A stretch of DNA of 33,811 nt from an uncultured Atopobiaceae bacterium (GTDB taxonomy: Bacteria > Actinomycetota > Coriobacteriia > Coriobacteriales > Atopobiaceae), in the NCBI GenBank assembly GCA_947625405.1, contig CANQOF010000017.1, positions 1-33,811 of the forward strand. Reading direction: 5' to 3'. The position numbers and the translations under genes are program-made. The notes beneath the pieces were generated by a model that was not told where the DNA came from, did no database searches, and saw only the letters and a list, made by a program, of their open reading frames with translations. Numbering within the stretch: the stretch's first letter is position 1; each line of letters begins with the position of its first letter. Positions 20,694 to 33,811 of this stretch are shown piece by piece.

Positions 20694-20768
20694 TCCTCGG
20701 TAGCTCAATGGTAGAGCCCTCGGCTGTTAACCGAGTTGTTGTAGGTTCGAGTCCTACCCGAGGAGCCA
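20694..20768 (+). tRNA. tRNA-Asn (anticodon GTT), CCA encoded
   Basis: A full cloverleaf can be drawn by eye. The acceptor is TCCTCGG/CCGAGGA, the D stem GCTC/GAGC, the anticodon stem CTCGG/CCGAG with loop CTGTTAA (anticodon GTT at 20726-20728), the variable loop TTGTT, and the T stem GTAGG/CCTAC with loop TTCGAGT. The discriminator is G and CCA is encoded (20766-20768). It has its own promoter and terminator. No integrase or att duplication is visible next to it. Confidence 0.97.
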
Positions 20769-20776
20769 GAACACGA

Positions 20777-20806
20777 AAAGCGCCTCTTTCGAGGCGCTTT
20801 CTTTTT
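20777..20806. terminator. Bidirectional terminator shared by tRNA-Asn and rpoD
   Basis: This is a perfect 10-bp stem AAAGCGCCTC/GAGGCGCTTT. On the plus strand the loop is TTTC and the tail CTTTTT, ending the tRNA transcript. On the minus strand the loop is GAAA and the tail TTTT, directly after the rpoD stop codon (20807-20805). The plus-strand T-run overlaps the rpoD stop. Confidence 0.9.
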
Positions 20807-23237
20807 ACTCTTCTATGTAGTCCTTGAGCTTTCCCGAGCGGCTCGGGTGGCGGAGCTTTGCGAGTGTCTTCGATTCGATTTGGCGAATGCGCTCGCGGGT
20901 GACTCCGAACTCGCGTCCCACTTCCTCGAGCGTGCGCGGGTGGCCGTCTTCAAGGCCGAAGCGCAGCTTGATGACCTTGCGCTCACGATCCGCAAGCCCG
21001 TCGAGCACCTGGTCGAGTTGCGCGCGGAGCATCGAATCGGTCGCGGCCTCGGGAGGCTTCACCGCCGTTTGGTCTTCGATGAAGTCGCCAAGCTGCGAAT
21101 CGTCCTCCTCGCCGATGGGCGTTTCGAGCGAGACGGGCTCCTGGCTGATCTTCTGGATCTCGAGCACGCGTTCGGGGGTGATGTCCATCTCCGCGGCGAT
21201 CTCCTCGGGAGTGGCCTCGCGCCCGAGTTTCTGGAGAAGATTTCGCTGGATGCGCACCATCTTGTTGATGGTCTCCACCATGTGCACCGGGATGCGAATC
21301 GTGCGAGCCTGATCGGCGATCGCGCGCGTGATGGCCTGGCGGATCCACCAGGTGGCGTAGGTGGAGAACTTGAATCCACGCGTGTAGTCGAACTTCTCCA
21401 CGGCTCGAATGAGGCCGAGGTTTCCCTCTTGGATGAGATCGAGGAAGAGCATGCCGCGCTTGATGTAGCGCTTGGCGATCGAGACCACGAGGCGAAGGTT
21501 GGCCGAGATGAGGGCCTGCTTCGCGTCGAGGCCCATCTCCTCGATGCGATCGAGACGCCTGAGCTCCGCGCGCGTGAGGTTGATCTCGCCACGCTCGAAC
21601 GCCTCGAGCTTCTCGGTGGCGTCCGTGCCAGCCTGGATCTTCATCGCGAGATCGACTTCCTCGGCGGCGGTGAGCAGGTCGACTTTGCCGATCTCCTTCA
21701 GGTAGAGCCGCACGGGATCCTTCGCGAGGAGGAGCACCGAGGGATCCTGCCTGCGCCTCTGCGCGGCGCTCTTGCGCCTGTTCGACGCCTTTGCGCGGGC
21801 TTTGCCCGCGCCGCTCGCTCGCGACGGAGGCTCCGGCACTTCGACGTCCACGAGCTCCTCGACCTCAAGGTCCTCGTCCTCGAGATCCTCGTCCTCGGCG
21901 TCGGCGGCACCCGCGTCGTCTTCGCCGAGGTCCTCGATTGCGGGGTTCATGAGCTGGGAGGTGTCGCCCTCGAACGTGGAATCGATCTGCATGCCCGCGG
22001 CCTTGATCCTGTCGTAGAGATCCTCGAGCTCGTCATCATCGAGATCGAGCTCGCGAAGCACGTATTGGATGTCGTCCTCGCTGATGCGGCCCTTTTGGCT
22101 CGAGGCGAGCTCCTTCGCGGCGTTGAGGGCCTCCTCGGAAGTCGAGGGTGCCTTGGTGGAGGGCTTCGAGGCCCTCTTCGCGGAGGTTTTCTTCGAGGTG
22201 CCTTTCTTGGAAGCGGCTTTCTTCGGCTTCGCGGCTTTCTTCGGCTTCGCGGCTTTCTTCGGCTTCGCGGACTTCTCGGAATCCTTCGCCTCTCCTGCCT
22301 CGGCGCTCGCCTGCGCCTTCTTCGAAGCCTTCTTGGTGGTTTTCTTGGCGGTGGACTTCTTCGGCGTTGCCCCATCCGATGGTGCCTCAAAGGCGCCTCC
22401 CTCGGCGCCCCTCTCCGCATCCTCGGCCTTCGGCTCTTCGGCTTTCGTCTCCGGCTTCTTCGAGGACCCCTTTTTCTCGGGATTCGTTGACGACGATTTC
22501 TTCGTCGCGGGCTTCTTCGCGGCTTTCTTCGCGGGCTTCGGCTTCTCGGGCTCGACGCTCTCCTGCGAAACGACGGGAGCGTCCGCGCGTGCCGATTCCT
22601 CCTTCTTCTTCGAAGGGGATGTGCTCGACTTGGCTCCGGCCTCCGCGGCCTCGGCCGCCTTCTTCTCCGAACCCTTCGAGGTCGTCTTGGAAGCGGGCTT
22701 CTTTGACGCCGACTTCTTTGCAGCCGGCTTCTTCTCGGGCTTCGGCTGCTGCGCCGCTTCCGCGAGGGCGACGGGGATTTCCGCCTCGGAGATCTCTTCG
22801 CCCTTCTTGGCAGGGGCCTTCTTCGGCTTGGGCTTGGCTTTGGGCTTCGCCTTCGGCGCCTCGGCCTTGTCGTCCTCCGCTTTCGCGCTCTTCTTCGCGG
22901 GAGCCTTCTTCGCGGCGGATTTCTTCGCGGGCTTCTTCTCGGCTTGCGCGTCGTCAGCCTTCTCGTCCAAGGATTTTGCCTTTGCGGGCTTTGCGCTCTT
23001 CGGTTTCTCCGCCTTGGGGTTCGAAGCCTTCTTCGCGGGCGCCGCTGAGACTTCGGCAGGCTCGTCCTGCGCGGATTGCTCCGTGCCCTTCGAGGCCTTC
23101 GGCTTCGTGGACGCCTTCTTCGCCGGGCTCTTTGCCGAGGCTTTCGCGGTGGGTTTCTTCGCGCTCTTGGGCTTTTCTTCCGCCTTCTCTTGCTCTGTGC
23201 TTTTCTGAGCTTCGACCTCGTGCGACTTTGATGCCAA
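20805..23237 (-). CDS. rpoD: Principal RNA polymerase sigma factor (SigA/RpoD) with a giant N-terminal extension
   Basis: This is an 810-residue group 1 sigma factor. Residues ~507-810 are a standard core: [12 protein letters not shown] (region 1.2), [17 protein letters not shown] and [18 protein letters not shown] (2.1-2.2), [20 protein letters not shown] (2.3-2.4), region 3, and [19 protein letters not shown] (4.2 helix-turn-helix). A region 1.1-like segment ([29 protein letters not shown] in two parts) precedes an acidic and then a basic stretch. Before that lie about 380 residues of Lys/Ala/Pro/Glu-rich low complexity, with KPKKAA repeated three times. Actinobacterial sigma factors often carry such tails, but this one is unusually long. 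The TTG at 23237 has AAGGA 6 nt away. It is the last gene after dnaG. Confidence 0.95.
22213..22266 (-). repeat. Three perfect 18-bp tandem repeats inside rpoD
   Basis: The plus-strand unit GCGGCTTTCTTCGGCTTC is repeated three times head to tail and encodes KPKKAA on the minus strand. It is the most regular part of the low-complexity N-terminal region and could change copy number by slippage without breaking the frame. Confidence 0.85.
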
Positions 23238-23289
23238 GGGAATTCCTTCCGCCTGATTTAAAAGCAAATTATTTTACTCCGACCTCTGT

Positions 23290-25164
23290 TCACTCCCTAT
23301 GGTCGTTCCACGATCTCACGGAAGCCTCCAACTCCGAGATACGCGCCCGGAGGGGTTGGGCAATCTGCATGAGTTCTTGGATGCGCGTCTCGTCCCGGGA
23401 GATTTCCGCGGCGTGGAGCTCGGAGGACGTGCGACGGAGCTCCTGGGAAAGCGACTGCAACTCCACTTGATCCACGAGGAACGCCGCCTCGGCCTCGCCC
23501 CAACGCCCCTCGCGATCGAACTCAGATGCAGCGAGGATCTGCGGCGCGAAGGCGTCCACGGCACGCGCGGCGGCGAGGCGCTCGTGCGCGCTCGCGTTCG
23601 GGGTGGCCACCAACGCCGCGGCAATTCGCCCATGGCGAGCGTCCCCCCACGAGAGGGCGCCGATGCGCCCCATCTGGCGCGCAAAGGCCTGGGGGCGAGA
23701 GGAAAGCGCGGCGAGGAGCTCGCGCTCGGAGAGGATCCTCGAGCGATCCGAAGTGCTCATGCGCGAGAGATCTGGGAGGGGTTCGCCCGGCTCCCCCTCA
23801 TCCCGAGAAGAGCCGCCCTCGCGGCTCTGCACCCGGAAATCGTCGCGCGGGCGGGGGGCCATCTGCTGCGCTGCCGCCGCCCTGCGGATGCGTTCGTGGA
23901 CCTGGGCTTCGTCTATTGAGAAGGCATCGGCGACCATTCCCGCGTAGGAGGAGAGCGCAAGCGGCTGGCTGGAGAGCGGGGCGAGGATGGCGCAGATGTC
24001 CTCGAGGATCTTCGCGCGCTCTCCCACCGAGGCGCCGCGTGCCTGCGCGAGGCGTCGCTCGATCACGAAGAGCACGAGGTCGGAGGCCTCGGAAAGCCGC
24101 TTCATCATTTCCTGCGGGCCCTCCGCCTCGAGGTATTCCGCGGGATCCTTCCCCTCGGGCAAGACGACGCAGAGGAGCTTCGCCCGCGTGCTTCCCACGA
24201 GCGCGACGATCTTCTCCGCGGCGCGCTGGCCCGCCTCGTCACCGTCCAAGAGGGAGACGATCTCTCGCGGGCGATAGCGATCGAGCACCTTGAGGTGGTC
24301 GGACGTGAGCGCGGTGCCGAGGATGGCCACGGCGTTCGTGATCCCCGCCTCGTGGAGCGCGATGGCGTCGGTGTAGCCCTCGACGATCACCGCGCGGCCG
24401 GTGGCGGTGATGGATTCCTTCGCGCGATCGAGCGCGTAGAAGTTCTTGCGCTTGTGCCAGATCGACGAATCGCGGCTGTTCAGGTATTTCGGGAGCGAGG
24501 TGTCGATCACGCGTCCGCCGAATCCGATGACCGAGCCAGCAGCATCGCGAATGGGAAACATCACGCGTTCGTAGAAGCGATCCCGAAGGCCATGCGGACC
24601 CTCGACGCCGAGGTCGGCCGCGATGATCTCCCGCGGCGAGAATCCCTTGCCCCGAAGGTGGCTCACGAGGTCTCCCCGGCCAATCGAGAAGCCGAGTCCC
24701 CAACGCAGCGAGACGTCACGGCCGAGTGAGCGTTTGGAGAGGTAGTCGCGTGCCTGCTGACACTTTCCGGCTTGGTCGCGGGTGCTTAAGAGCAGTCGCG
24801 CGAAGTGGCGTTGCGCCTCCTCGAGGCAGGCGATGAGACGCCCGCGCCCAGGGCCCGCGGCGCCCCCGGCGCTTTCGTGGAGTTCGATGTGCGCGCGATC
24901 CGCGAGGTAGCGCACGGCATCGGCGAACTCGAGGTTCTCGCGCCTCTTCACGTAGTCGATCACGTCGCCCTTCGCACCGCATCCAAAGCAGTAGAAGAGG
25001 CCACGATCCGCCGAAACGTGGAACGATTCCGTGCGCTCCTCGTGAAAGGGGCATCGTCCCCAGAAATCGCCCGCGGACTTCTCGTGGAGCATCACGGTTT
25101 CGCCCACGAGCCCCACGAAGTCCGTCGCCTGGACCACCCGTTCCTTTTCCTCGGCTGAGATCAC
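23290..25164 (-). CDS. dnaG: DNA primase DnaG
   Basis: This 624-residue primase makes RNA primers at the replication fork. The N-terminal zinc ribbon is C38-x2-H41-x17-C59-x2-C62 (RCPFHEERTESF, YCFGCGAKGD). The TOPRIM core has VIVEGYTDAIAL (E262) and LLDGDEAGQRAA (307-314), with ERVMFPIRD and GFGGRVI upstream. About 180 C-terminal residues form the helicase-binding region. The usual TPSF after the zinc ligands reads TESF here. The GTG at 25164 overlaps the ribF stop as GTGA. rpoD follows after 52 nt, the classic dnaG-rpoD pair; rpsU is absent. Confidence 0.97.
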   Translation of the reverse strand: MISAEEKERVVQATDFVGLVGETVMLHEKSAGDFWGRCPFHEERTESFHVSADRGLFYCFGCGAKGDVIDYVKRRENLEFADAVRYLADRAHIELHESAGGAAGPGRGRLIACLEEAQRHFARLLLSTRDQAGKCQQARDYLSKRSLGRDVSLRWGLGFSIGRGDLVSHLRGKGFSPREIIAADLGVEGPHGLRDRFYERVMFPIRDAAGSVIGFGGRVIDTSLPKYLNSRDSSIWHKRKNFYALDRAKESITATGRAVIVEGYTDAIALHEAGITNAVAILGTALTSDHLKVLDRYRPREIVSLLDGDEAGQRAAEKIVALVGSTRAKLLCVVLPEGKDPAEYLEAEGPQEMMKRLSEASDLVLFVIERRLAQARGASVGERAKILEDICAILAPLSSQPLALSSYAGMVADAFSIDEAQVHERIRRAAAAQQMAPRPRDDFRVQSREGGSSRDEGEPGEPLPDLSRMSTSDRSRILSERELLAALSSRPQAFARQMGRIGALSWGDARHGRIAAALVATPNASAHERLAAARAVDAFAPQILAASEFDREGRWGEAEAAFLVDQVELQSLSQELRRTSSELHAAEISRDETRIQELMQIAQPLRARISELEASVRSWNDHRE

Positions 25165-26216
25165 GCGACCACGCTCTCATCAGAATCGCCTAAGAGGCGC
25201 CTCACTTGGTCAAGGTTGGCCCTCACGGTGGCGACGAGCTCTGATTCGCTCGAAAACCTTCTCGACGCGCGGAGTCGTTCTACGAGCACGACCGCCACTT
25301 CCTGCTCGTAGAGGTCTCCCTCGAAGCCGAGAAGCGATGCCTCCGCGAGCCACGTTCCCGCGTCGAGCGGCGTCGAATCGAAGCTCGGGGGGTTTCCGAG
25401 GTTCACCGCCGCGGGCCACGCCATTCCGCGGGCGGAGAGGATGCCGACGAACACGCCCTCGCGGGGAAACGCGTAGGAGTCGCTGAAATGCACGTTTGCC
25501 GTGGGAATGCCGAGGCCGTGCCCCTCTCCCCGTCCGCGCTCCACGCGCCCTCGCACGAAGGGATAGCGGCCTATGAGCTCGTAGGACGCGCGAATCGCCC
25601 CTTCATCGAGAAGCGCGCGAATGCGCGTGGCGCTCACGGGCATCCCGTCCACCTCCACGAGCTCGTGCCCGAAGAGCTGCACGCCGAGCGCCCCTGCAAG
25701 CACTTGGAGCGCCTCGAGGGTGCCTTGGCCTCCCGCGCCGAGGGAGAAATCCTCCCCCACGTGCACGGCGAGCACCTCCGCGAGGCCGAGGAGGCGCTCC
25801 GTGAAGAACTCCTCGTAGCCCATCGCCGCAAACTCGGCGTCGAAGTGATAGGCGACGATCGCGTCGGGGCGAAGCGAGGCGAGAGCGAGGAGCCTGTCGC
25901 TTCCCGAGAGGATTTGCGCCTCTCGGGTGCCCTCCGCGAGCACGCAAGCGGGGTCCGGATCAAAGGTGATGAGCACGAGCGGAACGCCCCTTCGCCTGGC
26001 GTCCGCCTCCGCCTCGGCGATGAGCGCCTGATGTCCCACGTGCACGCCATCGAAGGCGCCGATGGCAACCACGGCCGCACCGCCCGGTTTCCAGCGTCCG
26101 GTGAGATCGAGGAACATCGCCCCCTCGAGCGCACGGGCTAAGGGAAGCTCGGTGCCGACGAAGAGCGCTCTTTGGGTGATGGTGCGAAGCATGAGCTCGC
26201 GCGCACTCGTTGCCAT
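25161..26216 (-). CDS. ribF: Bifunctional riboflavin kinase / FAD synthetase
   Basis: This 351-residue protein converts riboflavin to FMN and then FAD. The N-terminal nucleotidyltransferase domain has AIGAFDGVHVGHQALI (HxGH at 59-62), LITFDPDP and VSATRIRALL. The C-terminal flavokinase domain has GIPTANVHF and FVGILSARG. The ATG at 26216 shares one base with the truB stop (TGATG). The pair truB-ribF is common in bacteria, and here ribF links that cluster to dnaG. Confidence 0.96.
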   Translation of the reverse strand: MATSARELMLRTITQRALFVGTELPLARALEGAMFLDLTGRWKPGGAAVVAIGAFDGVHVGHQALIAEAEADARRRGVPLVLITFDPDPACVLAEGTREAQILSGSDRLLALASLRPDAIVAYHFDAEFAAMGYEEFFTERLLGLAEVLAVHVGEDFSLGAGGQGTLEALQVLAGALGVQLFGHELVEVDGMPVSATRIRALLDEGAIRASYELIGRYPFVRGRVERGRGEGHGLGIPTANVHFSDSYAFPREGVFVGILSARGMAWPAAVNLGNPPSFDSTPLDAGTWLAEASLLGFEGDLYEQEVAVVLVERLRASRRFSSESELVATVRANLDQVRRLLGDSDESVVA

Positions 26217-27139
26217 CACTCGCTCCCCAAAAGCACGCCGTCGACGAGATTCGCCTTGGGACGGAGCTCTCCCGCTCGGTGCTCCCAGACCCCTCGCAAG
26301 AGGCCATCCCAGACCACTCCCACGAGCGGACCCTCCCCCTGCCGCGCGTAGAGCGATTGGCCGTTTCGTGCCCGCGCGATCTCGCCACCCTCGAGATCCC
26401 GTCGCGTGAGGCCCGCCAAGGCCAAGGGATCGAGCGCGCGGGATGGCACGACGTCCCAACCCCCCGCCGAAAGCTCATCGAGCGAAAGAGTATCCCTCAG
26501 CGTCACCGGGCCAGACGCACTCCTTTGGAGGGATCCCACATGCGCATAGCATCCGAGCTCTCGTCCGAGATCCCGCGCGAGCGCCCGCACGTAGCACCCC
26601 TTGGACACGCGAAGCGCGATCGTGGCGACGAGACGCCCTTCACGCTCGCATGCGGAGAGGAGCGTCGCGTCGTGGACCTCGACCTCCCGAGGGTCGAGAT
26701 CGAGTGCCTCGCCTTTTCGCGCGGCCGCATAGGCGCGCCTTCCCCCCTTCGACACGGCGGAAACCGAGGGAGGCACTTGCTGACGCACCCCCACGAGCGA
26801 TGCCACGGCTCGCGAGAGCGCTCCTTCTTCGAGAAGGCTCTCGGGCACGCGCGCCTCGCGGATGACCTCGCCCTGCGCATCGTCGGTGGACGTCTCGGCA
26901 CCGAAGACGAATTCCGCAAGGTAGGACTTGTCGGCAAGGGTGACCAAGCCCAGAAGCCGCGTCGCCTGGCCGAGTCCGAGGACGAGCACGCCCGTCGCCG
27001 CGGGATCGAGCGTTCCCGCATGGCCCACGCGCCTGAGGCCGAGCGCTCGCCGCACACGCGCCACCACGTCGTGCGACGTCATGCCCGAGGGCTTGTCGAC
27101 GGCGATGAGGGCGCCTGGATGATGTGCGCGCGCCTCCAC
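26216..27139 (-). CDS. truB: tRNA pseudouridine-55 synthase TruB
   Basis: This 307-residue enzyme makes the universal pseudouridine 55 in the tRNA T-loop. The N-terminus is GALIAVDKPSGMTSHDVV, and the catalytic aspartate is in VGHAGTLDPAATGVL (D45). CYVRALARDLGRELG near the middle is typical. The start is a GTG at 27139, 3 nt after the nrnA stop. The length is normal and includes a C-terminal PUA-like region. Confidence 0.96.
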   Translation of the reverse strand: MEARAHHPGALIAVDKPSGMTSHDVVARVRRALGLRRVGHAGTLDPAATGVLVLGLGQATRLLGLVTLADKSYLAEFVFGAETSTDDAQGEVIREARVPESLLEEGALSRAVASLVGVRQQVPPSVSAVSKGGRRAYAAARKGEALDLDPREVEVHDATLLSACEREGRLVATIALRVSKGCYVRALARDLGRELGCYAHVGSLQRSASGPVTLRDTLSLDELSAGGWDVVPSRALDPLALAGLTRRDLEGGEIARARNGQSLYARQGEGPLVGVVWDGLLRGVWEHRAGELRPKANLVDGVLLGSE

Positions 27140-27142
27140 GGG

Positions 27143-28162
27143 CTACCCACCGAGCACAAGGGCCTCGAGCTTGGGCAAGACGGTCTCCTTGGCCGCTTCG
27201 AGCGACACCTTGCCGAGCGAGAAGCCCGCAGCGGCCGCATGGCCACCTCCGCCGAGCTCCGTCGCAAGCCCCGAGACGTCGATCTCGCTCTTCGAGCGAA
27301 GGTTCCCGCGGATCGCGCCCTCGGGCGTCTCGCGGAGAAGCAGGGCCACCTCGGCTCCCTCGACACTTCGCACGATGTCCACGAGGCCCTCGGATTCGTC
27401 CTCGCCCGCGCCCGTGGCCTCGAAATCCTCCCAGAAGACCCAAGAGAAGGCGATGCGCCCGTCGAGCAACGTCGTGATGCGGCCCATGACCACCGATTCG
27501 AGGCGGAGATAGGAAAGTCGCATCGACTGGTAGACGTTGAGAGCCACGACCGAGGGATCCGCTCCCGCCGCCACGAGCTTTCCCGCGGCCCAAAACGCCT
27601 CCGCGTTCGCGTTTTGATATTGGAAGCGACCGGTGTCGGTCATGATCGCGCAGAAGAGGAGCATCGCGACGTCGCGCGTCACCGCGGCGTCGAGGTAGAG
27701 CGCGTATTCGAGGATGACCACCCCGCAGGCGGCGACATCCGGACGCATGATCGCGCCATCCCCGAAGGGGCGCTTCGTGGGGTGATGGTCGATGACGAAG
27801 ACCTCACGCGCGCGCTCCATCGTGGCGCGCGCATCGGCAAGGCGAGACGCCACCGAGAGATCGACGGCTATGAAGAGGTCCGGCGCCTCAGGCGCCTCGC
27901 GAGGAGGCACGAGCTCGTCGATCATCGGAAGGAAGCGCAGGTGGCGGGGCACCTCCTTGTGCTCGGCGAGAAGGCAGTGGACGCGCTTTTCCGGCCAGCG
28001 CTCGCGGATGATGGCCGCGAGGGAGAGCTCGGAGCCGAGCGCGTCGCCATCGGGCGACATGTGCGCGCAGATCGCAATCGTCCTTGCGCGCGTGATCGCC
28101 TCGCTGAGCTCGCAGAATCCCCTCTCCTGCCGGCAGCGTCGCCCTTCGGAAACACCCGTCAC
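27143..28162 (-). CDS. nrnA: DHH/DHHA1 phosphoesterase, NrnA-like (oligoribonuclease / pAp phosphatase)
   Basis: This 339-residue DHH-family protein probably degrades nanoRNAs and dephosphorylates pAp. Motifs are CAHMSPDGDALGS (33-44), AVDLS, VIDHHPT (DHH, about 124-130) and TDTGRFQY. The C-terminal DHHA1 domain ends with the conserved GGGGHAAAAGF. NrnA is common between rbfA and truB in Gram-positives, which supports the assignment over RecJ. The GTG at 28162 overlaps the rbfA stop as GTGA; the longer open frame upstream lies within rbfA. Confidence 0.92.
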   Translation of the reverse strand: MTGVSEGRRCRQERGFCELSEAITRARTIAICAHMSPDGDALGSELSLAAIIRERWPEKRVHCLLAEHKEVPRHLRFLPMIDELVPPREAPEAPDLFIAVDLSVASRLADARATMERAREVFVIDHHPTKRPFGDGAIMRPDVAACGVVILEYALYLDAAVTRDVAMLLFCAIMTDTGRFQYQNANAEAFWAAGKLVAAGADPSVVALNVYQSMRLSYLRLESVVMGRITTLLDGRIAFSWVFWEDFEATGAGEDESEGLVDIVRSVEGAEVALLLRETPEGAIRGNLRSKSEIDVSGLATELGGGGHAAAAGFSLGKVSLEAAKETVLPKLEALVLGG

Positions 28163-28569
28163 GAGCGCTCCCCCTCCCCGGGATCGCGCGCCTCGAGGGG
28201 ATAGCCCTCGTCGTCCTTGGCCTCGGTCATGGTGGGCGGCACGTGCCTCAGCGCCTCCGTGATGCGCTCGGCTTCCTCGGTGGAGGGATCGATTCGAAGG
28301 TCGAGCTCCGGGGTCACCCTCCAGCCGAGCGCACGCCCGAGAAGCCGGCGGATGTGGCCCTTCGCCCTGCCGAACGCCTCGGCAACCGCCTCTTCCTCCT
28401 CGGCAGGGCACGCCACGTAGGCTCTGATGAAGGACCTGTCGATCGAGACGTCGCAGCCGGTGACGACCACGCCCGCGAGGGCGGGATCAGACACCTTCGT
28501 CTGGAGGATCGCCGCGAGCTTTTCGCGCGCGATCTCGGCCGAGCGGCGAGTATGGGGTGAGCGCTTCAC
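28159..28569 (-). CDS. rbfA: Ribosome-binding factor A
   Basis: This 136-residue KH-like protein matures the 5' end of 16S rRNA in 30S assembly. It begins VKRSPHTRRSAEIAREKLAA, then has VSDPALAGVVVTGCDVSIDR and ALGWRVTPELDLRIDPSTEEAERI, the normal RbfA core, with a charged tail somewhat longer than in E. coli. The GTG at 28569 follows a GGGAGCGG ribosome-binding site; it is 13 nt after infB. The open frame running further upstream is a shadow of infB. Confidence 0.94.
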   Translation of the reverse strand: MKRSPHTRRSAEIAREKLAAILQTKVSDPALAGVVVTGCDVSIDRSFIRAYVACPAEEEEAVAEAFGRAKGHIRRLLGRALGWRVTPELDLRIDPSTEEAERITEALRHVPPTMTEAKDDEGYPLEARDPGEGERS

Positions 28570-28582
28570 GGTTTCCGCTCCC

Positions 28583-31159
28583 CTAGCTCGTGCGCGCCAC
28601 CTCGACGATGCGGTACGCCTCGACCACGTCGCCGATGTGGAAGTCCTGGAAGTTCTCGAAGGAGAGGCCGCACTCGTAGCCGGCGCGCACGCTTGGCACG
28701 TCGTCCTTGTAGCGACGCATCGAGGCGAAGGCGCCGTCGTAGACCACGACGCCGTTGCGCACGATGCGCACGCGATCGTCGCGTGAGATCTCGCCCTGGG
28801 TGACCATGCAGCCGGCGGCCACGCCGACCTTCGGCACCTTGAAGGTTTCGCGCACCTCCGCCTCGCCCATCTGCTGCTCTTCCTCGGTGGGCTTGAGCAT
28901 GCCGATGCGGGCCGCGTCGATGTCCTCGATCGCCTGGTAGATGACGGAGTAGGTGCGGATCTCCACGCCGTCGCGCTCGGCGAGGGAGCGCGCCTTCGCC
29001 TCGGGGCGCACGCCGAAGCCGATGATGACCGCGTCCGATGCCGAGGCGAGGATGACGTCGGTTTCCGTGATGCCACCGACCGCGCCGTGGATGACGTTGA
29101 TCTTCACCTCGGACTGGTCGATTTTGGCGAGCGCGTCGCGCAGCGCCTCGATCGAGCCCTGCACGTCGGCCTTCACGACGAGGTTGAGCTCGGCGACCTC
29201 GCCCTCGTCCATCGTCTCGAAGAGGTTCTCGAGCGTCACCTTGTGGGTGGCGTTCTGCTCTTCGATGCGAGCCTTGAGGGCGCGCTGCTCGGCGAGATCG
29301 CGCGCATCGCGCTCGTCTTGGAACACGCGGAACTCGTCTCCCGCGGCGGGCACGGAGGAAAGCCCGAGGATCTCCACCGCGTCGGAGGGCCCCGCGCTCC
29401 CCACGTTCTGCCCGTGTTGGTCGAGCATGGCGCGCACGCGCCCGTGGCTCATACCCGCCACGACCGCGTCTCCCACATGGAGCGTGCCGCGATTCACGAG
29501 CAGCGTCGCGACGGCGCCACGTCCGCGATCGAGCTTCGCCTCGAGCACGTAGCCGGAGGCGAAGGTGTTCGGGTTGGCCTTGAGCTCGAGCACGTCCGCT
29601 TGGAGGAGCACGGTCTCAAGGAGCTCGTCGATGCCGATCTTCTTCTTCGCGGAGATGTTCACGAACATGTTCTCGCCACCCCACTCTTCGGGGATGACCT
29701 CGTATTCCGTGAGCTCCTGGCGCACGCGATCGGGATTGGCGTCGTCGCGGTCGATCTTGTTCACCGCCACGACGATGGGCACCTTCGCGGCGCGCGCGTG
29801 GTTGATCGATTCGACCGTCTGCGGCATGACGCCGTCGTCTGCCGCCACGACGAGGATGACGATGTCCGTCACCTTCGCGCCACGCGCGCGCATGGCGGTG
29901 AAGGTCTCGTGGCCGGGCGTGTCCACGAAGGTGATCTTGCGCCCGTCGATCTCCACCTGCGAGGCGCCGATGTGCTGCGTGATGCCACCCGCCTCGGAGG
30001 CCACCACGCCGGTGTCGCGGATGGCGTCGAGCAGCGACGTCTTGCCGTGGTCGACGTGGCCCATCACGGTGACGACGGGCGAGCGCGGGAGGAGGTCGGC
30101 GGGGTCGTCGTAGAAGGTGAAGGAGTTCTCCTCCTCCTTCGTCATGACGCGCACCTCTCGGCCGAGATCGTCGGCCACGAGCTCGATGAGGTCGTCGGTC
30201 ATGGACTGGGTCATGGTGAGCGGTGTGCCGAGGAGGAAGAGGCGCTTCACGATGTCCGACGCGTCGACGCCGAGAAGCTCGGCGAGCTCGGCCACCGTCG
30301 AGCCCTGGGGCACCTTCACGGTGCCGAGCTGCGAGACGTCCTGGTCGTTGGCGATGGCCTCAGCGATCGCGCGCTCCTCCTCGCGTTGCGCCTGCTGCTG
30401 CTGGCGACGCTCCTTGCGCTTCTTGCGCCTGCCGGTGGACGCGCGGTTCGCCTCCTCGACCTGCGCGCGGGCATCCTCGAGCACCCGTTCGCGGTTGTAT
30501 TCCTCCGCGGCGCGGGCCATGCGCGCGTAGCGATCCTCGTTCTCCTGGCCCCTGCGACGCTTGTTCCCGCGCCCTCGGCGATCCGAGGTCGGCCTCTCGG
30601 GCTCCGGCATGGGAGCCGGCCGCTTCTCGTGGGTTTGGCGCGGCGCTCCTTGGCCCCTCGCGGCGTCCTTCGCCCGCACCGATGCCTCGGCCTGCCGCTT
30701 GAGCACCTCTTCCTGCTGTGCGATCTGCGATAGAAGCCCTTCGAAGGAGGGCGAGAGCTTCGGCGCGTTGTCGCGCACGCGATTCGCCTCTTCCTCGGCG
30801 CGCTTGCGCTCTTCCTCGGCGGCTTTCTCCGCCTCGCGGCGCTTGCGCTCCTCCTCGGCGGCCTTCCGCTCCTCGGCGCGACGACGCTCCACCTCGAGGC
30901 GCTCCGCCTCACGGCGCTTGCGCTCCTCCTCGGCGGCCCTCTCGGCTTCCTCCTCCTCGGCCTTCTTCTGCGCGAGGATCTCGTCCTGGCGAGCCTTGAG
31001 GATGGGACCGAGCTTTTGCTTGGCCATGGACACATAGGCGGGCACAAGCCCCGAGGAGGGCGACTTCGCCGGAATTCCCATTTCGGCGAGGTAGCCGAGG
31101 AGCTCCTTGCTCGACATGCCAAGATCCTTGGCGAGCTTATGGACGGGCGTGTTTGCCAT
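28583..31159 (-). CDS. infB: Translation initiation factor IF-2
   Basis: This 858-residue GTPase brings initiator tRNA to the ribosome. IF2_N modules are at residues 1-50 ([19 protein letters not shown]) and about 280-335 ([20 protein letters not shown]). Between them lies a highly charged helix (about 65-130, repeated [10 protein letters not shown]) and a basic Arg/Gln-rich linker. The G domain has GHVDHGKT (367-374), DTPGHE (413-418), NKID (467-470) and SAK (503-505), followed by domains II, III and the fMet-tRNA-binding C-terminus. AAAGG 10 nt before the ATG is a modest ribosome-binding site. It follows nusA by 46 nt; the ylxR gene usual here is missing. Confidence 0.98.
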
Positions 31160-31205
31160 CTATTCGCTACCTTTCGAGAGGATGCGCTTCGATACGCGGA
31201 CGGGG

Positions 31206-32426
31206 TTAGACGAGGTCGAACGCGTCGCTTTGGGCGCTTTCATGGACGCCGCAGAAGGCCGAGCCAGGACGTGCCATGTTGCGGCAACGCACCCCGTTCT
31301 CGTCCACATACTTGCAGCGATGCGAGCCCTCCTCCTCGAGCAGGTCGTCCGCCTCGTCGGCGAAGGAATTCGGGAAGAGGCCCTGGGCGAGATCTTCGTT
31401 CTTGATGTCGATCTTCCAGCCCGTGAGCTTCGCCGCAAGGCGGGCGTTCTGGCCGTCTTTGCCAATGGCGAGTGAGAGCTGGTCGTTGGGCACGATCGCC
31501 GTCGCCTGGCGCGATCTCTCGTCGATGAGTACGCGATTCACCTTCGCGGGCGAGAGCGCCTCGGCCACGCAGCGCGCGGGGTCGTCGGACCACTGCACCA
31601 CGTCCACGCGCTCCCCTCGAAGCTCGGAGACCACCGAACGCACGCGCGAGCCCTTCGGCCCCACGCAGGCGCCCACGGGATCGAGCCGGGAATCGATGGA
31701 GGCGACGGCCACCTTCGAGCGCACGCCCGGCTCTCGCGCGATGGAGCGGATCTCCACCACGCCGTCGTAGACCTCGGGAACCTCGAGCTCGAAGAGTCGG
31801 CGCACGAACTCCTTGTTCGTGCGGCTCACGATGATCGTCGGCCTCGAGCGCCGCGTGGGCTCGCCCTCATTCGGGTTCTTGACGTCGACGATGACCGCCT
31901 TGAGGCCCTTGTCCTTCGTGAGGTAGCGCTCACCGCGTGGCCGCTCGTTGCGCTCCTCGGGATGCCGGCGCGTGTCGAAGTGGGGAAGCTCCGCCTCCAC
32001 GCCCTTTCGGATTTGCAGGATCGTGAAGTCGAGGGTGGATTGGATCACGTCACCGGAGATGAGGTCGCCGATGCGATTAGAGAACTCCTCGTAGATGCGC
32101 TCCTTCTTCACCTTGTCGACGATGGCCATGATCTCGGCCTTCGCGTTGTGTGCGGCGATGCGCGACGTGTCCTCGGGGGTCACGTCCACGTAATCGAACT
32201 CCGTGTACTTGCCGGTTTCGGGATCGGGCTCGCCCTTGGGCACGATCTTCGACACGTAGATGTTGCCCGTGGCCTTGTCGATCGTCACCTCGGCGCCGTG
32301 CTCGAGGTTCATGATGTCGGCATAACTCTTGGCCAGCGACTTCTCGAGTCGGTCGATGAGGTAGTACTGGTCGATGCCTCGCTCTTGGCAAAGGGCCATC
32401 AACGCTTCCATCATCTCAGACGCCAT
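31206..32426 (-). CDS. nusA: Transcription factor NusA with a C-terminal Cys3His tail
   Basis: This 406-residue elongation, pausing and termination factor binds RNA polymerase and RNA. The N-terminal domain spans about 1-110, an S1 domain about 112-205 (ending TIIVSRTNKEFVRRLFELEV), KH1 about 225-290 (DPVGACVGPKGSRVRSVV) and KH2 about 300-345 (NDQLSLAIGKDGQNARLAAK). After KH2, where short NusA proteins end, an acidic linker leads to C371-x9-C381-x10-C392-x2-H395, which looks like a small zinc knuckle of the CKxxxxxGxxC...CxxH kind found in unrelated bacterial proteins. GAGGA lies 5 nt before the ATG. It is the second gene of the rimP operon. Confidence 0.96.
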   Translation of the reverse strand: MASEMMEALMALCQERGIDQYYLIDRLEKSLAKSYADIMNLEHGAEVTIDKATGNIYVSKIVPKGEPDPETGKYTEFDYVDVTPEDTSRIAAHNAKAEIMAIVDKVKKERIYEEFSNRIGDLISGDVIQSTLDFTILQIRKGVEAELPHFDTRRHPEERNERPRGERYLTKDKGLKAVIVDVKNPNEGEPTRRSRPTIIVSRTNKEFVRRLFELEVPEVYDGVVEIRSIAREPGVRSKVAVASIDSRLDPVGACVGPKGSRVRSVVSELRGERVDVVQWSDDPARCVAEALSPAKVNRVLIDERSRQATAIVPNDQLSLAIGKDGQNARLAAKLTGWKIDIKNEDLAQGLFPNSFADEADDLLEEEGSHRCKYVDENGVRCRNMARPGSAFCGVHESAQSDAFDLV

Positions 32427-32483: not shown

Positions 32484-32960
32484 TCAGAGGTCGTCGTAAT
32501 CAGGCTGGAGCTGGGCCTTTTGGACGCTCTCGAGGGGAAGCTCGAAGCGCTCTCCATCTACCTCGAGCACGAGCGCGCCATCGCCCACCGAGACGATCTC
32601 GCCCGTGTAGGAGCGACGGCCCGAAAAGCCCGCCATCTTCACCTGGGCCCTCTCGCCCACATAGCGCGCGAAGTCCCTTTCGCGGCGAAGCGGTCGCGCG
32701 AGCCCGGGAGAGCTCACCTCGAGGGTGAAGGGGCCTGAGAAGAGCCCCGTTTCCTCCACCGCGGCATCCACCCACGAATTCGCCTTCGCAAGCTCCCCGA
32801 GGTCGATGGGGCCATCTTCTGGGGACGCGTGGTCGAGGTAGACGCGAAGGAGCGGCGCCCTGGACGCGCCCGCGAGCTCCACGTCCACGACGTCGAGCTC
32901 GGCTGGCGCCGCGTTCTCGAGCGCCTCGATGAGCCGCGTTCGTTGATCGATGGCCGCCAT
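32484..32960 (-). CDS. rimP: Ribosome maturation factor RimP
   Basis: This 158-residue protein assists 30S assembly. The N-terminal alpha/beta domain contains LDVVDVELAGASRAPLLRVY and GPIDLGELAKANSWVDAA. The core motif FTLEVSSPGLARPLRRERDF is diagnostic, and an SH3-like C-terminal domain follows (VKMAGFSGRRSYTGEIV). GGAGG lies 4 nt before the ATG at 32960; the frame is open upstream across the promoter but without a suitable start. It is the first gene of the rimP-nusA-infB-...-rpoD run, behind a promoter and a leader terminator. Confidence 0.95.
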   Translation of the reverse strand: MAAIDQRTRLIEALENAAPAELDVVDVELAGASRAPLLRVYLDHASPEDGPIDLGELAKANSWVDAAVEETGLFSGPFTLEVSSPGLARPLRRERDFARYVGERAQVKMAGFSGRRSYTGEIVSVGDGALVLEVDGERFELPLESVQKAQLQPDYDDL

Positions 32961-32980
32961 GCATCCTCCCCTCGTCCAAC

Positions 32981-33024
32981 AAAAAGGAAGCGGGGCGAAA
33001 ACTCGCTCCACTTCCTCGCGGAAG
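32981..33024 (-). terminator. Leader terminator of the rimP operon with a competing GCGA hairpin
   Basis: On the minus strand, GGAAGTGGAGCGA (33015-33003) pairs with TCGCCCCGCTTCC (32998-32986): 13 positions, one mismatch, one G-T wobble, 4-nt loop, then five T (32985-32981). The GGAAG of its 5' arm can instead pair with CTTCC at 33024-33020 across a GCGA tetraloop. The terminator lies between the promoter and rimP, ending 20 nt before the ATG, as in an attenuator. It could also end read-through from the PASTA gene. Confidence 0.8.
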
Positions 33025-33045
33025 ACCTTGTTTATCGGCACGCCA

Positions 33046-33074
33046 AGTATGGATTTGCGCCGCTCGCGGGTCAA
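33046..33074 (-). promoter_or_regulatory. Promoter of the rimP-nusA-infB operon
   Basis: TTGACC (33074-33069) and CATACT (33051-33046) are separated by exactly 17 nt on the minus strand, a good housekeeping-sigma promoter. The predicted start near 33039 gives a leader of about 80 nt that includes the terminator hairpin. Confidence 0.75.
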
Positions 33075-33125
33075 GCGAAGCGACCCATGCAGACAACTTC
33101 CCCAAACTTCCCCACGCGTGGGCGC

Positions 33126-33811
33126 TCAGCCATTCACCTTGAAGAACGGCACGTCGGTTTGCTCGTCGTAGAAGCCCACGAGCTTTCCCCCTTCGTCGAA
33201 GGTGAGGGTGACGGTGCGCGTGTCCTCCGAGCTCTCCGCACCCGCGCCGGGAAGGCCCTTCCAGTCCCAGTCCACCGTGACGGTGGCCGTGACCTGCCGC
33301 TTCTCGGGGTCGACGGAGAGATCCTCCTTCACGATCGAGCGAGGAAGGCTCTGGAGCTCGTCCGGCTGGTCGACGTAGCGCCCCCCGCGCTTCACGAGGT
33401 TCCACCACACGTCGTGGGCACTTTGCCCAGAGACCTCGCTCTCTGGCGAGAGGAGCGGGAGGAGCGCGTTGCCGATGGCGTCGTTTTCGGGATTCGTGTT
33501 ATAGACCGCGTTCAGAACCGCCATGGCGGCGTTGGTGTAGAAGTCCGTGGGATTGAGCGCCACCTTCGCCACCACCGTCGTGCCCGCGACGACGGCGGTC
33601 CCCGCGGCGGGATCCTGCCCCACGATCGTGCCCTCGGCTTGTCCCCCCGTGGCGAGGGCGTCTTCCGTCGAGAGCTTGAGGAAGAGCGACACGAGCTCGG
33701 ATGAGGCCTCGTCGGGGGTGAGCCCGGAAAGATCGGGGACGATCGGGCGCTTCGCCACGATCACCTGGACGACGCTATCGCGCCCGATGGGGGTGCCGGA
33801 GGCAATGCTGG
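33126..33811 (-). CDS. PASTA-domain protein, C-terminal part only
   Basis: The frame is open to the window edge, so the N-terminus is missing; 228 codons are visible. The first residues (ASGTPIGRDSVVQVIVAKR) are the end of one PASTA repeat. A second follows (IVPDLSGLTPDEASSEL to GTTVVAKVAL, about 65 residues). PASTA repeats bind muropeptides and peptidoglycan in Ser/Thr kinases and penicillin-binding proteins. The last ~140 residues form a domain I do not recognise, with WWNLVKRGGRYVDQP, two beta-rich stretches (VTATVTVDWDWKG, TRTVTLTFDEGG) and the end DVPFFKVNG. No kinase or transpeptidase part is in view, so the protein type is open. It precedes the rimP promoter. Confidence 0.75.
   Translation of the reverse strand, partial: SIASGTPIGRDSVVQVIVAKRPIVPDLSGLTPDEASSELVSLFLKLSTEDALATGGQAEGTIVGQDPAAGTAVVAGTTVVAKVALNPTDFYTNAAMAVLNAVYNTNPENDAIGNALLPLLSPESEVSGQSAHDVWWNLVKRGGRYVDQPDELQSLPRSIVKEDLSVDPEKRQVTATVTVDWDWKGLPGAGAESSEDTRTVTLTFDEGGKLVGFYDEQTDVPFFKVNG

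Follow-up and report, generated by a model that had tools for sequence, protein, structure and literature searches.

Locus and downstream gene block

The window, by which we mean the whole stretch of 33,811 nucleotides analysed here, is contig C17 of a metagenome-assembled genome of a gut bacterium of the Atopobiaceae (Coriobacteriia), 1.7 Mb in size and 98.5% complete. An uncultured Atopobiaceae bacterium has a NusA with 94% identity to the one encoded in the window, and for named strains of Olsenella, Thermophilibacter, and Collinsella the identity is 64-70%. A PASTA-domain open reading frame (ORF) on the minus strand ends at 33126, and between it and rimP the same strand carries, in this order, a promoter, a small hairpin, a terminator, and a Shine-Dalgarno sequence.

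The promoter is of the sigma-70 type (TTGACC-17-CATACT, 33046-33074, minus strand) and matches the consensus at 9 of 12 positions. Two promoter-like sites, one per strand, are present in the 1812-base region, compared to a mean of 0.2 in shuffled sequences, and the segments CTTGAC and CATACTT are invariant across the six leaders of the genus. From the position of these elements, we infer that transcription starts near 33039. The terminator stem-loop (32986-33015, minus strand), which corresponds to the general rimP-leader or nusA-leader hairpin, is recognized by its fold and, as discussed below, by covariation and its presence in all leaders read. It has the form GGAAGUGGAGCGA-GUUU-UCGCCCCGCUUCC from 33015 to 32986, a stem that includes a single A.C mismatch and a single U.G wobble, and the intrinsic terminator is completed by a T5 tract (32981-32985, minus strand) seen in the sequence and in alignment A1. 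The calculated folding energy is -18.7 kcal/mol, while shuffled sequences give -6.7 +/- 2.1 kcal/mol (z -5.8; none of 200 as good), and a hairpin of this stability followed by T5 could terminate transcription without any factor. The hairpin at 33015-32986 is absent from the minus-strand list of a simple terminator scan, which we think is due to the internal mismatch. The earlier note had called the promoter good and had placed a strong intrinsic terminator within about 55 nt; both assignments hold, the end of the terminator lying about 58 nt from the inferred start.

The Shine-Dalgarno sequence of rimP, read from the sequence as GGGGAGG (32965-32971, minus strand), is located between the end of the terminator stem at 32986 and the ATG start codon at 32960. 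The rimP gene, which encodes the 30S maturation factor, is the first of this block of essential genes (32484-32960; Pfam PF02576 and PF17384). It is followed on the minus strand by nusA (31206-32426; PF08529 and PF13184), likely both the controlled gene and the controller, and then, all assigned with Pfam, by infB (IF2; 28583-31159), rbfA (28159-28581), the gene of a DHH/DHHA1 protein (27143-28411) that we take to be of the NrnA type, truB (26216-27139), ribF (FAD synthetase / riboflavin kinase; 25161-26459), dnaG (23290-25164), and, as the last gene, rpoD (20805-23267). For the DHH/DHHA1 protein and ribF the coordinates are those of the ORF, and the true start is probably internal. A 10-bp hairpin just past rpoD (20777-20800), listed in the hairpin scan on the plus strand only, may be where the block ends on the minus strand. 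A plus-strand tRNA-Asn gene is convergent with rpoD (20694-20800), and the single hairpin between the two may terminate both.

The block had been proposed in the earlier note to extend to rpoD, and the gene order supports this, being kept from rimP to rpoD in seven of the nine stretches fetched. The two exceptions are L206, whose contig stops at dnaG, and L209, from another family, which has no rpoD within the fetched DNA. No other promoter is found within the block on the minus strand in a simple scan for one promoter type. The gap between nusA and infB is 46 nt (31160-31205) and is overlapped by a 101-aa ORF without a Pfam match, with no ylxR-like gene seen; at L078, a locus discussed below, the ORF after nusA is presumably ylxR-like.

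The terminator hairpin among relatives

Sixty genomes of relatives were sampled. A RimP match is present in 58 of them, and the upstream DNA was read in 56; in the other two (G014 and G040), where rimP was not re-found in the short fetched piece, the model matches stop 40 and 61 nt short of the rimP match. With the wider regular expression (core AGUGGG...CCC[G/A]CU or a near variant), the hairpin is found between the promoter region and rimP in all 56 leaders read (55 distinct), each with at least four T in eight of the next 12 bases, a pattern that 23 of 1120 mononucleotide shuffles also pass. The narrower core expression, applied to the 250 nt upstream of rimP, matches 43 of the 56 leaders, as against one of 1120 dinucleotide shuffles and none of 38 coding controls. 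On reading, its misses in these leaders and at the loci of the genome collection described below are mostly core variants. The T tail of L018 is poor, and an energy scan gives no terminator there.

The 12-pair stem is paired in 96.9% of the cells over 53 sequences, with changes on both sides in eight pairs. None of 500 shuffles is as good on any of five measures, and slid versions of the stem reach at most 65% pairing; these values are for related sequences and for a stem that was picked by eye on the alignment on which it was tested. Forty-nine of 53 Coriobacteriales leaders retain the U.G wobble at mid-stem (A1 columns 17/39, 33010 with 32991 in the window), the same position being C-G in three and U-A in one; in alignment A3, discussed below, the 12 Bacillota rows all carry U-A.

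A model built from the leaders of the relatives matches in 57 of the 60 genomes, the best match lying just before rimP in 56 of these. G056 has a model match, and no rimP was found in that genome. The three genomes without a match are G026, which also lacks a RimP match, and G044 and G051, in both of which the wider expression does find the hairpin. A second leader-like site in the genome of the window (G000 C6, E 0.004) was discarded, since the hairpin there follows an ORF that by eye reads as an oxidoreductase subunit; matches of the same score occur in G001 and G003. In G029 (C1, 1054090 and 1057368), two full rimP matches are each preceded by an identical hairpin, with a rimP fragment between them, reflecting either a duplication or an assembly artefact.

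The distance between promoter and hairpin is also conserved. The best promoter score is 9 or higher in 37 of the 56 leaders. Of these, 32 have 24-31 nt between the end of the -10 element and the hairpin, and five have 49, 54, 54, 54, and 67 nt; by this simple score, the remaining 19 leaders show no good promoter site. This spacing bears on an option that the earlier note had itself raised, namely that the hairpin serves just to terminate the PASTA gene, whose ORF ends some 110 nt farther upstream in the same orientation. We consider it highly improbable, because a conserved promoter separates the PASTA ORF from the hairpin, and a PASTA gene is located upstream in only 11 of 30 loci, whereas the hairpin is present in all 30, including the other 19. 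The kept spacing and these counts identify the hairpin as a leader attenuator rather than a PASTA terminator. The reading of the earlier note is thus supported as far as it sees an early stop signal of the rimP-nusA operon, with a promoter that belongs to it, a covarying stem, and a conserved spacing.

Beyond the close relatives, model matches are found in 31 of 246 genomes of a phylum sample. Of these, 21 are from the family, order, or class of the window, and all 21 adjoin rimP-nusA; 195 genomes without a match are unlisted, and the counts thus do not cover misses within the class. Ten matches fall outside the class, and none of the nine loci examined among them (G158 was left out) has rimP or nusA by tblastn. 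In the genome collection, the narrower core expression matches at 51 of 78 loci with rimP, and among these 78 loci a similar core precedes rimP in Clostridia, Bacilli, and one Armatimonadota locus (L089), with no core visible at L087. The cross-phylum alignment A3 has a 7-pair core that is 98.8% paired; for two of five covariation measures, 63 and 326 of 500 shuffles score as high, and these two are not above the shuffled background.

Two further models were used, namely R2, which contains the hairpins of L078, L081, and the window, and R3, a control built without these three. In a search of the 33.8-kb window with R3, which holds the leaders of other groups only, the window leader takes the top rank with a weak score (16.3 bits, E 0.038), and genome-wide in the genome of the window R3 gives no match at E <= 1. 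We attribute the weak score to the core of the window, GUGGAGC, which differs from the common GUGGGGC. The strand specificity of R3 is low, as both strands are matched and many of the hairpins are near-palindromes. The weak score indicates that the genus of the window is a divergent member, tied to this kind of leader mainly through its Atopobiaceae relatives.

The small GNRA hairpin of the genus

Upstream of the terminator, the leader contains the small hairpin CTTCC-GCGA-GGAAG (33011-33024, minus strand), a genus-specific element with a GNRA tetraloop that was identified from folds and the six-genome alignment. As the earlier note had pointed out, its GGAAG segment (33015-33011) is also part of the terminator stem, making the two stems mutually exclusive alternatives. 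The small hairpin alone has an energy of -6.1 kcal/mol (z -2.6), a value reached by four of 200 shuffled versions of the 17-nt segment. Taken in its 30-nt context and compared to shuffles that keep the arm, it does not stand out (p 0.105-0.23 across the six leaders of the genus).

The earlier note had suggested that NusA, or another factor, sets the expression of the whole block by deciding between the two hairpins, in which case the small hairpin would be a true antiterminator stabilized by that factor. Several observations are in line with such a switch. The exact 14-mer CTTCCGCGAGGAAG occurs once per genome in all six genomes of the genus, always in the rimP leader; over the 60 genomes it is found in ten, the other four (of 54) having it elsewhere, while the reversed control pattern is found in four genomes, twice in that of the window. 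The ten hairpin columns TCTTCCGCGA are invariant at 10 of 10 positions, compared to 4 of 21 in the preceding spacer (Fisher p 2e-5), a test over six genomes that treats sites as independent and uses columns picked after seeing the alignment. The hairpin is still invariant where the RimP identity to the window falls to 54% within the genus.

The stepwise equilibrium fold, in which the start is assumed at 33039, points in the same direction. The small hairpin is the first to form and then gives way to another, shifted pairing in which the same strand takes part; later, while the lower stem of the terminator is unformed, it returns beside the terminator apex and is displaced once the last bases of the 3' arm emerge. 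In this fold, the small hairpin thus sits on the lower stem, and it is the closing of that stem that melts the RNA-DNA hybrid.

On the other hand, the small hairpin is absent from the 50 other leaders of the order. In the best fold, 15 of these have at least four arm bases paired upstream, and only in L018 is the upstream pairing of the arm as stable (-7.6 kcal/mol, p 0.01), although such a p value is about chance level among 50 leaders. In the 29 Atopobiaceae outside the genus, no column upstream of the arm exceeds 0.63 bits except the arm-adjacent base (1.11 bits). A family-wide antiterminator or other conserved upstream element was therefore rejected on the basis of the upstream-arm folding and the column information. 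Energetically, the small hairpin (-6.1 kcal/mol) together with the terminator apex (-7.6 kcal/mol) is about 5 kcal/mol weaker than the whole terminator (-18.7 kcal/mol). Covariation, which the earlier note had proposed to look for in both stems, is found in the terminator stem; the small hairpin, being invariant in its six genomes, shows none, and such invariance is neutral on pairing.

As the small hairpin is confined to one genus and weaker than the terminator, we consider a true two-hairpin switch, in which NusA or another factor would decide, somewhat unlikely. What does stand from that proposal is NusA as the likeliest controller, on the grounds of the literature and of the occurrence of the leader with nusA described below; what lacks support is the choice between two hairpins as a general mechanism. 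Given its invariance within the genus, the small hairpin may have a modulating role.

The gene served by the leader and its possible control

At two loci, L078 (Coriobacteriia; genome G060) and L081 (Actinomycetota), no rimP precedes nusA and the hairpin is located just before nusA. Judging by eye from the translations, nusA is preceded at L081 by genes resembling proS and recD2. A search of the relatives of L081 with R2 gives matches in 35 of 41 genomes, and among the 30 loci examined, the hairpin precedes nusA without a rimP match in 26, precedes rimP-nusA in two (L184 and L197), and lies elsewhere in two (L199 and L200). The hairpin lies 31-124 nt ahead of the nominal start of nusA at 24 of the 26 loci, and farther away at L190 (177 nt) and L178 (more than 200 nt). 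R3 matches all 31 loci given to it, including the non-nusA loci L199 and L200.

The RimP_N domain is undetected in the 26 rimP-less genomes and in G060 by a search that is positive in 10 of 14 control genomes, and it is found in both rimP-first genomes. The loci L172-L201 represent an actinobacterial lineage without detectable RimP_N. The rimP-less genomes are mostly of one lineage, which amounts to few independent events; as the 26 are related, and their completeness is not given, we count the losses of rimP as probably two and not 27. Loss of rimP would passively leave the leader before nusA, and it is the persistence of the leader alone that would argue for function. The hairpin thus precedes nusA in 27 genomes in which RimP_N goes undetected. 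This makes a need for RimP as the sensor improbable and leaves nusA as the shared target, suggesting that the leader acts to control nusA.

The general rimP-leader was described in 2010 by Naville and Gautheret, who named NusA as the best candidate for its control, and the main text of that paper reports it in Firmicutes and Gammaproteobacteria (PMC2965389). The window leader resembles it, as described there, in having a G-rich 5' arm and a C-rich 3' arm followed by a T stretch before rimP-nusA-infB, and in the distance of the terminator from the start codon, which falls within the 4-130 nt given for the general form (32986 to 32960). No antiterminator can be seen in the general form. The core of that form, GGGc...gCCC, compares to GGAGC...GCCCC, with the A.C mismatch, in the window and four of the five other genus members; the remaining member, L006, has GGGAC...GTCCT, and other Atopobiaceae mostly have GGGG...CCCC. 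Unlike the general form as described, the window leader has a small hairpin added on the stem base, and its block extends to rpoD.

In B. subtilis, NusA is reported to be autoregulated by NusA-stimulated termination in its leader (PMC12288461). For S. agalactiae gbs0413-gbs0418, RNA-seq shows short and long transcripts from one start, with termination 31 nt after the operon start, and the authors propose feedback by NusA (PMC4448216). NusA has also been proposed to help suboptimal hairpins form (PMC8060035). As far as these sources describe their systems, the window shares with S. agalactiae a very short leader (about 58 nt inferred in the window, compared to 31 nt) with a promoter-proximal terminator before the genes of rimP, nusA, IF2, and rbfA, and with B. 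subtilis an intrinsic terminator before the nusA operon, the stimulation by NusA being reported on the B. subtilis side. The B. subtilis leader is likened here by description, and the Bacillus sequence compared is that of Bacillus sp. L092 only.

RF01770, which a table of PMC5955585 lists as "Gammaproteobacteria rimP leader", is alike in its operon position and in the idea of attenuation; however, the RF01770 model does not match the window leader. It is not found at the gathering threshold, where the sole match in the window is a tRNA, nor is it among the two matches at E <= 10 within 32900-33130. No Rfam model matches at gathering in 13 loci from several groups. Among the titles and abstract openings returned by searches of one open-access library, which leaves most subscription papers outside, none names a Coriobacteriia rimP or nusA leader.

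We interpret the leader as an attenuator of the rimP-nusA-infB-...-rpoD block that belongs with the general rimP-leaders and most likely provides feedback by NusA (probability of about 0.75). The effector would be NusA, judging from the B. subtilis report, the S. agalactiae proposal, and the occurrence of the leader with nusA. In the proposed mechanism, RNA polymerase would start near 33039 and reach the intrinsic terminator within about 58 nt. When NusA is plentiful, it would stimulate pausing and hairpin completion, and most polymerases would stop; when it is scarce, more of them would read through into the operon.

The conserved spacing and the near-invariant stem would also suit a constant set-point, that is, an attenuator that passes a fixed fraction of polymerases. 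As most of the block products act in transcription or translation, a response to RimP, IF2, or the state of the ribosome could likewise be envisaged. We regard both versions as quite improbable, because NusA control has been reported for the B. subtilis leader and proposed for that of S. agalactiae, and the 27 genomes discussed above speak against RimP as the sensor.

Within the NusA feedback reading, the small hairpin might have a particular function in this genus. It would keep GGAAG, at the base of the terminator, occupied up to the emergence of the 3' arm, slowing the last, hybrid-melting step, and the terminator would hypothetically become more dependent on NusA. The main sigma factor is a competitor of NusA for RNA polymerase. 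A more elaborate proposal can be formulated, in which the leader belongs to nusA, survives the loss of rimP, and has gained in this genus a GNRA hairpin that makes the final zipping require NusA, such that NusA sets the supply of sigma factor. We offer this combination tentatively and consider it unlikely as a whole.

The leader is documented here across the Coriobacteriia, and since 13 loci have no Rfam match at gathering, such leaders may go unannotated. The kind of leader is itself already known; what is new is the argument on its target, alongside a lineage-specific embellishment. The retention of the leader before nusA in the absence of a detectable RimP domain lends comparative, non-experimental support to the view that the "rimP-leader" works for nusA. 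If NusA controls the leader in this organism, IF2, primase, and the housekeeping sigma factor would all be coupled to the NusA level through a single attenuator. Should the leader indeed be owned by nusA and gated by the GNRA hairpin, NusA would set the supply of the main sigma factor, rpoD being the last gene of the block.
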